Of a stretch of DNA of 64,000 bases, positions 17,020-54,672 are shown piece by piece (the first letter of the stretch is position 1; each line of letters begins with the position of its first letter). The DNA is from Fragilaria crotonensis (Eukaryota > Bacillariophyta > Fragilariophyceae > Fragilariales > Fragilariaceae): contig JAKSYS010000030.1 of assembly GCA_022925895.1 (NCBI GenBank), forward strand, positions 124,001 through 188,000, in the 5' to 3' direction. The notes below the pieces were generated by a model, which saw only the letters and a list, made by a program, of their open reading frames with translations, was not told the origin of the DNA and made no database searches. The translations under genes were made by a program, and so were the position numbers.

Positions 17020-18215
17020 CTAAGCTTGCTGTTCTTTTGCTAGCTGCGCCAATTTCTCTTCCTGGTCCTTAGCGATCATAGCATCGATAATTGGACCTAT
17101 ATCCGCATTCAGGAATTGCGAGAGAGGGAAATTTTGCCCTAATCGGTGATCGGAGCAGCGTGAGTCCTTCCAGTTGTATGTTCGAATCTTCTCCGAACGC
17201 CCCCCAGTACCAACTTGTGCTCCACGACGCTCGCGTTCTTCCGCCTCTCGCTTCTCGACTTCGATAGAATACAGCTTGGACATGAGCATCTTCATGGCCA
17301 ATTCCTTGTTCTTCAATTGCGATCGCTCCTGCGTACATTTGATTCTGATTCCAGTTGGCTTGTGCAACAAATCAATAGCAGTTTCGACCTTGTTGACATT
17401 TTGTCCACCAGCGCCACCGGAGCGCATCGTCGACATGTCAATATCTTTGGGGTCAATCTTCACGTCGACTTCGTCACACTCAGGCATGACAGCCACTGTA
17501 GCTGTGGAGGTGTGTACACGGCCCTGAGATTCAGTTGCTGGTACTCGCTGCACTCTGTGGACCCCTGCCTCCCACTTCATTTCGAGTAAACCGACTCGCC
17601 CTTGATATCAAGGGTGACGGACTTGTAACCGCCGTCATCACCCGGTGAGGATTCAATTTCTACCGCCTTCCATCCTTGTGCCTGAATAAACTTTCGATAC
17701 ACGTCCAGTAAGTCACCAGCGAAGATGTTGGCCTCCGACCCGCCCGTCCCAGCTCTAATTTCAAGGAGGATGTTGCGATCGTCGTTTGGATCCTTCGGCA
17801 GGAGCAATAGTGTGACCTTCTTTTCCAGTTCATTCATGCGTGCATCGAGATCCTTCATTTCGGCGCGAGCCATTTCCTTCATATCGGGATCGTCTCCGGC
17901 CTCCTGGAACAAGTCTGTCGCGCCTCGTAGTTCCTCCTTGAGGCCAACGTATTCTTCGTAAGCAGCAACAACCTCTTCACTCTGAGCTCGATCAGACATA
18001 ATTTTTCGAAGCAAGGCAGCATCTTCGAGGACATCTGGGTCGCCCAATCGTTCCGTTAACGACAAGTAGGATCGACGAATGTTCTCGAGACGGGCCTCGG
18101 TCGACTCATCCATTAAACGCAAAACAACGGAGGCCGATCGGCTTGTGGGTGCGACAATAAAACCCTCAGACGCGGACGTTAGTAGGAGTGTTAGCAAGGC
18201 ATGATAATATCTCAT
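17020..18215 (-). CDS. prfA: plastid peptide chain release factor 1, frame break in the middle
   Basis: Class I release factor that recognises UAA/UAG and triggers peptide release on plastid ribosomes. The chosen start is ATG 18215: [23 protein letters not shown] is a signal peptide with the diatom Phe at the cleavage site, followed by a Ser/Arg-rich transit part. The PCRF coiled-coil domain follows, then [19 protein letters not shown], and, after the break, [20 protein letters not shown] and the catalytic GGQ in [15 protein letters not shown] (about residues 270-272). The frame stops at TGA after VYSK (17577), and the continuation [10 protein letters not shown] begins at an ATG overlapping that stop (ATGA). 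Family members read VYS-K-(L/M)-K-(W/F)-E here, so one A is missing from the A-run at 17580-17582. With it the protein is about 398 residues, the usual RF1 size plus presequence. Upstream ATG 18332 is less likely. Confidence 0.9.
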
Positions 18216-18399
18216 GGTTGTATGCTTGATCTCTTGACGGGCTGTTCTGATGTCGAACAGAACGACGGAAGTAGGTTGTTTACTTGTGAGACTAATGGCA
18301 TGACAAAGAATTTCAGAGAGAAAAGATGACAATCACGGATCTCGTACGTACTGTCGTAAGCCAATGGTCGGCGGAGGTCGGAGGGACATATCGACAGCA

Positions 18400-44555: not shown

Positions 44556-45998
44556 ATGATGCACCGTATCGCAATTGTCGTTGCATCGCTCGTTCTCCTT
44601 GGCGCAGATGGGTTCACCACCTATTCGCCGTCCCAACGGTAAGTGCTGTTTCGTTGATTGGATTGATTCATTCTTGGGATCGACTTATTCGGCGTACGAC
44701 ACACGGCGAGGCGAGGCGAGTGATCGTTTCGATAGTTACCAAGGTCGCGATCTATCTTGCGAGTACCTACAGGGTGGATGGGGAGATGCGAATCTGCAAC
44801 CTGTCGTATTCTCCCGTCGACAACTAAATCTCTGAACGACTCCCTTACACCCCTCCTAGGTCCAGGAATGCTGTCACCTTGCAGGCCTCACCTCTGCAGC
44901 TGAACCGTTCCATATTGGGACTTAAGACGAGCCGCGCTAAGAATCATGGCAACTCCTTGTCACCGTCGGCCAAAACGAATCCTACGCGCCAAATTGCCAT
45001 AACGGTAGGATCATGGAGATTTTGTACTATATCTGCGTCACCGACAACATTCTCAAAACATCCCATTGCGTCTTAGGTTCTCAAAAACGTCGCCACATCC
45101 TTCTTCATGCTAGCTCTCCTTCACACGCCAGCCGCTCTAGCGGCCAAGAAATCCACCGTCGTTGTAGAGCACTTGCACACGGGACAAAAGATTGCAAACT
45201 TTTTTCGATCATTTGGATTGCCGGATGTCGCTGTCTTGGCCCTCATTTCGGCCCTCCCAGTTGTGGAGCTCCGAGGTGCCATCCCCGTGGGGATATGGAT
45301 GGGATTGCCTATCACTACGGTCCTTCCGGCTTGTGTATTTGGGAATATGCTGCCCATCATACCAATCTTGTACCTGCTACGCAATGAACGACTCAAGTAA
45401 GTGACAAACAATGTTTGTTCAATGTGTATCCGTTGTCCCGCATCATGCGGTTGATTGGTCTCACTCATTCAAAAAAATTCGATTTCAGAAAGTTGATGGC
45501 CCCAATTTTGGATCGCGCTGAAAAAAAGTCGGCGAGTTTGGGTGTCGGTTCCCTTCAGAAGCAATGGGTTTCGCTAGCTGCCTTTGTAGGTGTTCCCCTT
45601 CCTGGAACGGGAGCTTGGACTGGAGCCATGGGGTCCTTTTTACTTGGAATGCCCACAGCTGTCGCTCTCTCTTCCATTTTTGCGGGTGTTGTGTCGGCAG
45701 GACTTATTATGTCCGCAATTACCTTGGCTGGCAAGAAAGGGGGGGAATCGCTGCCTTGGCTGTGTTGTTTGCCTTTACAGCGAAAGAACTCTTGTTTGGT
45801 GAGAAGAAGCAAGACTTTTTGGAGGCTAGTCCATACTGGGATCAGACTGACGTTCCAGTCAATGTGTACAAGAACAAGGAACCCTTCATCGGCAAGGTCA
45901 TCTCCACCAAGAGAATTGTCGGGCCACAGGCCACTGGTGAGACTTGCCACATCATCATCGACCACAAAGGCAAATTCCCATACTGGGAGGGACAATCT

Positions 45999-46033
<35 letters not shown>

Positions 46034-46737
46034 TGGAAAGCTACATTCTGTTCGTCTGTATTCCATCGCGTCATCCCGCTACGGCGATGACATGACTGGA
46101 AAGACTGGTTCACTTTGCGTTCGTCGCGCTACCTATTGGTGTCCCGAGCTCAAGGCCGACGATCCTGCGAAGAAGGGCATCTGCTCCAACTTCTTGTGTG
46201 ACACCATGCCTGGAGATGAAGTGCAAATGACGGGACCCGCTGGCAAGGTCATGTTGCTGCCCGAGGAGGATCCCAACACCGACTACATCATGGTGGCGAC
46301 CGGTACTGGTATCGCTCCCTACCGTGGTTTTGTCCGACGTCTCTTCGTTGAGTCAACACCCGCGGCTGCTGCCTACAAAGGTCAGGCCTGGTTGTTCTTG
46401 GGCGTCGCCAACAGCGATGCGTTGCTGTACGACGACGAGTGGCAGTCGGTTAAGGCGGCCCACCCCGATCAGTTCCGGTTGGACTATGCGTTGTCCCGTG
46501 AGCAAGAGAACAAGAAGGGGAGGCAAGATGTACATTCAGGACAAAGTTGAAGAATACGCCGACGAAATCTTCACCAAGCTCAACAACGGTGCTCACATTT
46601 ACTTTTGTGGTTTGAAGGGAATGATGCCTGGCATCCAAGATATGCTGAAGGATGTTGCGTCGTCCAAGGGCTTGGACTATGAAGAGTGGTTGAAGGGACT
46701 CAAGGCTAAGAAGCAGTGGCACGTTGAGGTGTACTAG
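44556..46737 (+). CDS. plastid small-multidrug-export-type membrane domain fused to ferredoxin-NADP reductase (four exons, two frame breaks)
   Basis: Exons 44556-44638, 44860-45004, 45077-45396 and 45489-46737 join in phase. Exon 1 gives [28 protein letters not shown], a plastid-type signal. Exons 2-3 add a transit region and a hydrophobic stretch ([14 protein letters not shown]). Residues about 120-280 match the COG2426 small-multidrug-export family: [14 protein letters not shown], then [22 protein letters not shown]. Without a stop the frame runs on into [28 protein letters not shown], the FAD motif [28 protein letters not shown], the NADP motif [24 protein letters not shown] and the terminal Tyr (WHVEVY). 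Breaks lie at the G-run 45739-45745 (one more G needed) and 46517-46520 (one fewer); together they give about 598 residues. FNR passes electrons from ferredoxin to NADP. The fusion is odd; a hidden intron near 45768-45785 (TTTGCCTTTACAG) could separate the parts in some transcripts. Confidence 0.8.
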
Positions 46738-49735: not shown

Positions 49736-50810
49736 GTCCTCTGTCGCTGGAAATGGTTAATGGTAACCGCTGCACCGAGTTACTACAGTGGGCTGCCGAT
49801 GGCGAGACAGTGGAGAGGTCGAACGAGAATAGGCCTGGTCGGAAGCAATATCATTTGTTCGATTTATGTTCATGCCGAGTTGAAGTCCATAAGAAGTTCT
49901 GTGAAGAGTGAACCTGTGCTGATGAATCGACTAAGTGCCCTAGGGACTCCATTGTATTTTGGAGTAGTATTCTGGAGAATTCGAAATTTCAATGTTCGCG
50001 GGCGAAGTTTGAATCAATCCGATTGTATACAAGACAGAAGCAGTATGTCATAGTAGTATTCATACATACATACCCCCTAAACAAATACTGGAGATGTACT
50101 TGTACTACTAGTCAAGGATCCAGAGCATGCATAATGCACATGCATATCATATATGGATTACAATACACTGTACTCGCAGTACAGGTACACGTACTACCGT
50201 ACAAGTAGTCCGAGCTCTGAGTATTGAGTATCGCGAGTTCATAATGAGCCCTGTCCCCTGTCCCGAGTCGAGTCACATGTCGAATCTGGACACTGGACAC
50301 CATTCTTCGTCAATTTTAAACTATACAGACAAGGGAATAGGATACGTCTGCCGACCGTCGGGTTGAAATGCTTAACGCTACATACCTCTATGAAAGAGCC
50401 ATGGCCTCCAGAACTTTCGTCAAACTTCCCTCCAACCGAATCTGCCATCTGCCGTCTGGTTATCACCTTCCGTCGGATGCGATTCTGTCGCATGAAGGCA
50501 GGAATCAAGTATGTAAAAGTATGTAGGTCTACCAAGTAGAATATCGAGCATATGGATGGATTAAAGGTTTGTCCTTCGTGACCTGCATCGTCAAAACTTC
50601 TTCCCCACCTGCTGTTGTACATAATTGCTCTCGTATCACATACGCGCTCTGCCATACGATTCCAGAATTGCAGAAAGCAAGAGTTACATTTTTTATTGTT
50701 CCATCGAGACTTGTCTCATTTTATACTCCGTGTACTACAGGTTGGACCTTCCAAACAAAACATGATACGAACGACAATACTGGAGTCACGTTGTGCCCTG
50801 TTTGTGGTTG

Positions 50811-52009
50811 ATGTTGCACATATCGTTGCAGGGGGCAGCGGCGAGATTACCACCGATGAATGGTGGTCTGGCATTTGTCTCATCCGTTGGCAGTCGGCGA
50901 CGTCGTCATCTCAACAGCCCATCCTTGGGTCGCCTACAATCGAATCTTGCCATGGCACCGAAAGCAATGATCGCTGAAGTTGGTGGAACATCGAATGGTG
51001 TGAAGGTCGATAACGAGTGGGGAATCCCAGACAGCGAGACATTGGAGCCCCTCTCCCCAGTACCTCTCGAGGAACTTCCTAACGGAGGCAGAATCACCTT
51101 GGTCGGTGCAGGACCTGGTGATCCAGAACTGTTAACCATGTCTGCCTATCGTCTATTGAGAGATCCAGACGTCATGGTCATTGCGGACCGCTTAGTTTCT
51201 GACGAGATTCTGGACCTCATTGCCTCGCAAGACGTCAAAGTCGCTCGAAAAATGCCTGGATGCGCCGATTTGGCACAAGAAGAAATTTATTGGTGGGCCC
51301 ATCGTGGCATTCAAGAAGGGAAACATGTCGTCCGACTCAAGATTGGAGACCCCTTCGTCTTTGGTCGGGGTGGGGAGGAGGTACTCAAATTTCGATCTTT
51401 GGTGTCGAATCGACGGTCATTCCGGTACGTTACTTTCTGGCGGAATCGTCCGTCGCGAGTCTTGCATTCCTTTGTTGACCTCAATGTGTTCGTATAATGC
51501 TAACCGAGGTCTTTCTCCAGGGTGTATCAGCAGCATTTTCCGCACCACTGCTTGGGTCCATTCCCGTCACACATAGAGGGGTTGCAAGTCAGGTGGTCAT
51601 GTGTACTGGATACGGTCGAAATGGGACGTCGCCTGATTTGATTCAATATCACAAGGAGCAAACGATTGTGTTTTTGATGGCAGTAGGAAGACTGGATGAG
51701 TTATGTCAGCGTCTTATCAACCTGGCGGGATATCCGTCCAAGACACCAGTTGCAATTGTTGAACGCGCTGGGTGTCCAGACCAGAGAACTGTGGTCGGCA
51801 ATATGGAAACTATTGCTGATCTAGCAATCAAATACAATGTCAAGCCGCCCAGCACGATCGTTGTTGGTGATGTTGTGAACGTTCTTCTTGGTCAAGACGA
51901 TGAGAGTGGAGACTGTAACTGGCTTGATTCAAAACTTCACCACGGCAGTCGTGTAAAAACTGATGAGATTAAATTAAGAAGCTATAGGGCTCTAGCATAC
52001 TGTCTATAA
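50811..52009 (+). CDS. uroporphyrinogen-III C-methyltransferase, siroheme pathway (two exons, one frame break)
   Basis: SUMT methylates uroporphyrinogen III twice with SAM to make precorrin-2, the siroheme precursor used by nitrite and sulfite reductases. Seen: ITLVGAGPGDPELLTMSAYRLLRDPDVMVIADRLVS (SAM loop and YDRL-like region), RLKIGDPFVFGRGGEE, then across the intron VIP-GVSAAFSAPLLGSIPVTHRG and VFLMAVGRLDELCQRL, NMETIADLA and STIVVGDVV. Exon 1 ends at 51424 and exon 2 starts at 51521 (GT-AG, phase 0). Just before the donor one G is missing at 51401-51402; with it the text reads GVESTVIP. The start is unsure: ATG 50811 gives a weak leader, while ATG 50762 would give a hydrophobic leader if the G-run at 50831-50835 were one shorter. 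Plastid location is expected from the pathway, not proven. Confidence 0.8.
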
Positions 52010-53260: not shown

Positions 53261-54672
53261 ATGAAGTACCTCTGTTTCGCAACTCTTTTGGCTGCTGCCA
53301 ACGCCTTTACGACCTCCCCTAGTGTTATCTCCACTGTTGGTGAAAAGTCGATCAACAATGTTTTCGCTGACTCCTCTGCTCACAGAACTCGCCGCTCAAC
53401 CATTGTTATGGACGGCAAGGCCAACGGTAAGGCTACGAGACTTTTGTACTGTCGCTCGTTGAACGGTGTACGGTGGTCACTTACGTACCTATTTTTGGAA
53501 CGATGAGGCATAACCATCATTCATCATACTGGAGTATGAGGAACCCATCAATAAACTCTTCTTCTGTTGTTGCTGAGGATTAATTACGACCGACGACGAT
53601 TGTTTTGGCATCGTTGGACTCGTGGGATGTAATCTATTCGCTGTGTCGATTGCTTGTTCGTGGTCGTTGCTGTAGTTTTGTGTACACACCCCCAGACGTG
53701 CGTCTCACCATGTACTACTGTATCACTTGAACCAAAACAGCCATCCGCGACCGTATTAAGTCAGTGAAGAACACCCGTAAGATCACCATGGCCATGAAAC
53801 TTGTCGCTGCTGCCAAAGTGCGTCGTGCCCAGGATGCCGTTCTTGCTACCCGTCCCTTCTCGGAAACTCTGCAATCAGTTTTCGGTGGACTTATTGCTCG
53901 TCTTGATGGTGAATCTATTGATCTCCCTTTGTTGACCCAGCGTGAAGTCAAGAAGGTTACCCTTTGCGTTATCACTGGGGATCGTGGTCTTTGCGGAGGT
54001 TACAACTCCTTCATGATCAAGAAGGCCGATGCCCGGTACAAGGAGCTCAAAGCTCAAGGTGTTGACGTTGATTTTGTGCTCATTGGTAAGAAGGGAATTT
54101 CTTATTTTGAACGTCGTGCCTATCCAATCCGCAAGACCTTCGAATGTGGGCAGAATCCAAATGCCAAACAAGGCCTCGCCATCTCGGAGGAACTCCTCAA
54201 CACGTACCTCTCTGGCGAGACCGACGCTGTTGAGCTTCTTTACACGAAGTTCGTTTCCCTCATCGCCTCCGTGCCTGCGACCCGTACCTTGGTACCCTTC
54301 TCTGCTTCCGATATCACCAACCAGGCTGATGAGATCTTCCAACTCACTTCTGCCGGCGGAGACTTCGGCGTTGAACGCACTGCACTGGCTGCTGCTGAGC
54401 CACAGGAATTCCCTAATGACATGATCTTCGAGCAAGAGCCACTCCAAATCGTCAACTCCATCCTCCCCCTCTACCTCAACGGACAAATCCTTCGTACTCT
54501 CCAAGAATCTGTTGCCTCCGAGCTCGCAGCCCGTATGCAGTCCATGCAATCTGCAAGTGACAACGCAGGAGAGCTTGCTAAGAACTTGAGCATGGAGTAC
54601 AATCGTGCTCGTCAGGCTGCCGTGACTCAAGAGATCCTTGAGATTGTATCGGGTGCTGCGGCCCTCGACTAA
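53261..54672 (+). CDS. atpC: plastid ATP synthase CF1 gamma subunit (two exons)
   Basis: Exons 53261-53426 and 53741-54672 join in phase across a 314-nt GT-AG intron (365 residues). Exon 1 encodes the bipartite presequence MKYLCFATLLAAANA-FTTSPSV up to MDGKAN. The mature part is IRDRIKSVKNTRKITMAMKLVAAAKVRRAQ, then LCVITGDRGLCGGYNSFMIKKA, and the C-terminal helix ELAARMQSMQSASDNAGELAKNLSMEYNRARQAAVTQEILEIVSGAAAL. Gamma is the central rotor linking proton flow to ATP synthesis. The redox-regulatory Cys pair of green plants is not seen in the region around LTSAGGDFGVERTALAAAEP, as known for red-lineage plastids, so thiol control is not expected. The intron separating presequence and mature protein is typical of transferred organelle genes. 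Confidence 0.97.

Follow-up and report, generated by a model that had tools for sequence, protein, structure and literature searches.

Plant ferredoxin-NADP reductase (FNR) is reported to be membrane-associated through tether proteins (PMC7984839), and TROL and Tic62 are described as these tethers (PMC13322767, PMC7984839, PMC10604066). A sequence-only reading of the DNA treated here had called FNR normally soluble and dependent on separate docking partners; the separate tethers stand, but "normally soluble" is too simple for an enzyme reported to be membrane-associated via them. FNR of green algae is described as binding to photosystem I with no need of further anchors (PMC13322767). The location of FNR is held to influence the balance of linear and cyclic electron flow (PMC7984839, PMC11912148), and for a PSAF-FNR chimera an increase of cyclic and a decrease of linear flow are reported (PMC11912148). 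The second protein family of concern here, PF06695 (Sm_multidrug_ex, COG2426), is described as a distant relative of the DedA/VTT proteins (PMC7818093).

The window, i.e. the whole stretch of 64,000 nucleotides that was analysed, corresponds to C241:124001-188000 in a 62.1 Mb, 881-contig genome of Fragilaria crotonensis and has a GC content of 46.7%. The published draft of F. crotonensis SAG 28.96 comprises 61.85 Mb in 879 contigs with a GC content of 47.4% and a completeness of 81%, and was produced from MinION R9.4.1 reads by Canu assembly and Pilon polishing (PMC9476933). Silicon transporters gave 19 matches in the genome analysed (best E 4e-193), and one of 14 control genomes gave a match, below the cut-off. 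Some of these transporters are tandem-fused, with three matches in one open frame of 1456 aa (C97:29749-33762) and two in one of 1008 aa (C771:21664-24330).

The region 44,556-46,737 of the window is compatible with a single four-exon gene encoding a presequence, a PF06695 domain, one more hydrophobic helix, and a plant-type FNR. It is fairly probable that this locus is one nuclear gene for a plastid-targeted fusion protein, whose FNR would be anchored in a plastid membrane beside anchor-free FNR copies. Its features are as follows:

44556..44638, + strand: exon 1, signal-peptide-like start (targeting read by eye); donor GTAAGT, phase 2
44860..45004, + strand: exon 2, rich in Ser, Thr, and Arg, taken by eye as plastid transit peptide; donor GTAGGA, phase 0
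45077..45396, + strand: exon 3, hydrophobic segment ending in ALA-AKK, then the first half of PF06695; donor GTAAGT, phase 2
45489..46737, + strand: exon 4, second half of PF06695, extra helix, FNR, and stop
45739..45745, + strand: run of seven G, one-base break between the PF06695 and FNR frames, taken as an assembly error
45741..45800, + strand: extra hydrophobic helix in the FNR frame (hydropathy 1.71 over 19 residues, and alignment)
45810..46520, + strand: main part of FNR with the FAD and NADP domains (3lo8_A, E 4.9e-97; PF00175, E 3.9e-15)
46521..46524, + strand: second one-base frame break, within FNR, overlooked by the sequence-only reading
46525..46737, + strand: C-terminal 70 residues of FNR, ending in WHVEVY, and stop (E about 1e-27)

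Exons 1 and 2 are read by eye as a predicted diatom plastid presequence. The consistent splice phases claimed for the four exons (2, 0, 2) hold, and so does the homopolymer break at the join that had been pointed out earlier. Both domains thus stand in one phase-consistent model, but as assembled their frames lie one base apart, which weighs against a fusion. The claim that the exporter domain runs into FNR without a stop fails, since a stop closes the PF06695 frame at 46093 and FNR is read in a frame shifted by one base at the G-run. Completeness, likewise claimed for both domains, is found for PF06695, whose match begins at profile position 1 and ends at 121, whereas FNR is whole only across the second break.

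The PF06695 domain is spread over exons 3 and 4. In a profile search (curated cut-off 30.7), positions 1-39 were matched in 45,077-45,400 (E 1.3e-9, 39.1 bits) and positions 54-121 in 45,490-45,804 (E 8.9e-17, 62.2 bits). Five standalone bacterial PF06695 proteins used for comparison stop near the join; here, a presequence precedes the domain, and the extra helix, missing from all five in the alignment, follows together with FNR. Both the profile search and a search with the protein sequence of the exon 4 piece place PF06695 at this single locus of the genome, with absence elsewhere to be read against the 81% completeness of the draft. Among 194 cyanobacterial genomes, PF06695 was found in three (G055, G067, and G077; L016-L018), in open frames of 154-161 residues that are therefore too short for a fusion. 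Because the family is so rare there, it is not obvious that the diatom domain came from cyanobacteria. The nearest matches in plasmid records were three clostridial ones with 30-36% identity, and scans of viral contigs revealed no relative.

The best solved chains for the second part are ferredoxin-NADP reductases (E about 5e-97 over 224 residues). Solved FNRs are matched over their full length, in two pieces flanking the second break, the C-terminal piece to the last residue. This part carries RLYS and GTGIAPYR, both of them conserved, and a C-terminal Tyr in WHVEVY; we take RLYS to be the FAD motif, GTGxAPxR the NADP motif, and the C-terminal Tyr a feature of FNR. With chains of the maize root FNR class among the matches, it resembles a plant-type FNR (petH product) and is root-type by its best solved match. 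It differs in that it lies behind a membrane domain in the gene model and lacks a separate presequence. From the stop at 45519 to position 46092, the FNR frame contains one ATG, at 45564; this was rejected as a separate FNR start, as it lies within the PF06695 coding sequence of another frame and is not followed by a presequence-like start (by eye). A scan of genome contigs (genome_contigs) returned one cyanobacterial FNR. Some 7 kb downstream, at 53731-54669 of the window (+ strand), lies an intact gene for an ATP synthase gamma chain (PF00231, E 6.8e-91), plastid-type by eye.

The two frame breaks bear on every reading of the locus. At the second, the FNR frame closes at 46550, and a different frame encodes the C-terminal 70 residues; the first piece of the match to 3lo8_A reaches residue 240 and the second begins at 242, which leaves a single residue for the four bases 46521-46524. 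Both breaks are best read, on sequence grounds, as assembly errors, because the genome agrees with the published nanopore draft, other genes are broken in like manner, and FNR is conserved on both sides. A release factor gene (PCRF + RF-1; window 17023-18332, - strand) lies in two overlapping frames at about 17580 with a gap-free profile match, and this one-base-type break is probably also an assembly error. The FNR gene on contig C31 contains two TGA and one TAA within one matched stretch, and its alignment with window positions 45808-46516 has ten gap places, eight of which have lengths not divisible by three (some adjacent pairs could be artefacts of the alignment). Homopolymer counts within the window gave no clear sign of truncated runs. 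A TP_methylase gene (50766-52006) was set aside as evidence for frame breaks, as an intron may separate its two matches.

The seven-G run may also be real. Runs of G are prone to slippage, and slippage or an unusual intron could then join the frames part of the time, yielding a short and a fused protein. This is extremely improbable: the frames could be bridged by 130 donor/acceptor pairs, with GTAGGT at 45586 as the best donor, but the acceptors available to this donor are weak, its introns would take out the extra helix as well as the second half of PF06695, and the second break would have no such function. For the same weak acceptors and the loss of the second half of PF06695, an intron across the G-run was rejected as the main cause of the break.

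More serious is the question whether two products arise from the locus. A stop lies at 45800 in the third frame; it would end PF06695 about where its bacterial relatives end if the G-run had another length, and so speaks against the fusion. PF06695 would then end near 45,800 and FNR would come from a transcript of its own, e.g. exons 1 and 2 spliced to FNR, giving a soluble plastid enzyme. An acceptor near 45780 had been proposed as such a route, but this site (45781) requires an upstream phase of 1 and so is out of phase with the three donors. It is one of 13 AG sites in 45640-45850, four of which require phase 1, provided by no donor. The remaining nine are in phase with some upstream donor, a count that also weighs against the fusion: four are in phase 2 (donors of exons 1 and 3) and five in phase 0 (45804, 45807, 45810, 45825, and 45846), from which the exon 2 donor would lead to the soluble plastid FNR. 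The in-phase sites look weak because of their pyrimidine fraction (0.33-0.60 vs 0.73 for 45781), and those in the exon 2 phase lie in or beside purine-rich sequence. The C31 gene is built in the manner of this alternative, with a presequence exon of its own (MKTAFCVATLFASASAFSPAAKPAF), a phase-2 intron just before FNR (by eye), and no PF06695. Conversely, the hydrophobic helix in the FNR frame straight after the G-run would have to be an accident. Taken together, two separate products are considered unlikely.

The paralogues permit an estimate of the constraint on the window FNR. A protein search against its own genome gave nine rows: the window gene itself, two for C31 (70% and 57% identity), one for C613 (50%), and five at 26-30%. 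The C613 gene (L014, 2720-3997), a third FNR gene with an intact frame, has about 190 N-terminal residues before its first, sub-threshold FAD-domain match; no Pfam family was matched by this long stretch. At the DNA level, C31 and the window are similar from window position 45810 onwards only, and hence the window FNR is without a C31-type presequence. The two copies share the same residue in 265 of 295 comparable codons, with dS 1.63, dN 0.081, and a ratio of 0.05 (by simple counting, with dS near saturation); judged from these codons, the window FNR is under strong purifying selection. Since, moreover, both domains are significant family matches, the PF06695-FNR locus is not a chance open frame. 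With C613 as outgroup, eight differences fall on the side of the window gene and three on that of C31 (19 undecided), for which reason the window copy may be evolving slightly faster, a skew that counts against the fusion.

These values also bear on the view that a decaying or mis-assembled copy is present, with real breaks and no working fusion. The two breaks in the assembled gene would fit such a copy; the dN/dS of 0.05 over 295 codons, the matches of PF06695 and FNR to their ends, and the breaks in other conserved genes of the assembly do not, and decay is accordingly thought improbable. As it is so well conserved, the window FNR is probably made and probably reaches ferredoxin, to which the presequence of PF06695 could carry it in fused form. 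The fusion remains the preferred reading because of the splice phases, the lack of a presequence and of a convincing start for FNR, and the selection on it, together with the bacterial PF06695 proteins ending near the join and the frame breaks in other genes.

For the fused protein, the following course is proposed. The presequence would take it into the plastid, where the observed DedA-related PF06695 domain is expected to fix it in a membrane. In a suggested model, each DedA-like repeat crosses the membrane once (PMC7818093); the extra helix would then return the chain to the side on which the loop RNERLKK lies, presumably the stroma, where FNR on a short tether could meet ferredoxin and NADP+. 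Loop charges agree with this topology in part only. As other FNR genes of the genome lack PF06695, and one of them carries a presequence, a fixed membrane-bound pool of FNR would exist alongside a mobile one and may steer electrons from ferredoxin at that membrane into cyclic flow or the local supply of NADPH. Which membrane is concerned is another matter: the Arabidopsis relative At2g02590 is listed among solute transporters of the chloroplast (plastid envelope), predicted or confirmed (PMC2246286), so placement in the thylakoid is not established and a location in the inner envelope is equally conceivable. Cleavage of the fusion after import, releasing soluble FNR, is very improbable; a short charged linker (FGEKKQD) lies ahead of FNR. 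It is also rather doubtful, though conceivable, that PF06695 works as a DedA-like carrier or lipid-moving domain that the fused FNR couples to stromal redox, as a natural enzyme-transporter fusion. Ferredoxin/NADPH would in that case drive or gate transport, or electrons would feed an enzyme acting on the moved substrate.

In the literature searched, by title and abstract and with most subscription papers outside the search, a PF06695-FNR fusion is not described. Chimeric proteins are reported in 42 ochrophyte plastid groups (PMC5462543), and the fusion may already stand in the tables of that study or, unremarked, in diatom annotations. What would be new here is a covalent multipass anchor, i.e. 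a new variant of FNR placement. It would tie a putative plastid membrane family, PF06695, to photosynthetic electron transfer and make the idea of control by FNR location testable by deleting one gene. In tethering by TROL and Tic62, FNR is likewise held at a plastid membrane (PMC13322767; PMC10604066), but these are separate, non-covalent tether proteins. In the CpcD-FNR of cyanobacteria, a covalent N-terminal domain places the enzyme (PMC9319322), but CpcD docks to phycobilisomes and is no membrane domain; a CpcD domain is absent from the window gene, which the CpcD-PetH model matched at FNR positions 110-334 of 405 only. In the PSAF-FNR chimera of Chlamydomonas, too, FNR is linked covalently to a protein of the thylakoid (PMC11912148), but this chimera is man-made and tied to photosystem I. 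If the fusion is confirmed, a diatom with a hard-wired membrane FNR would be the natural counterpart of this engineered tether.
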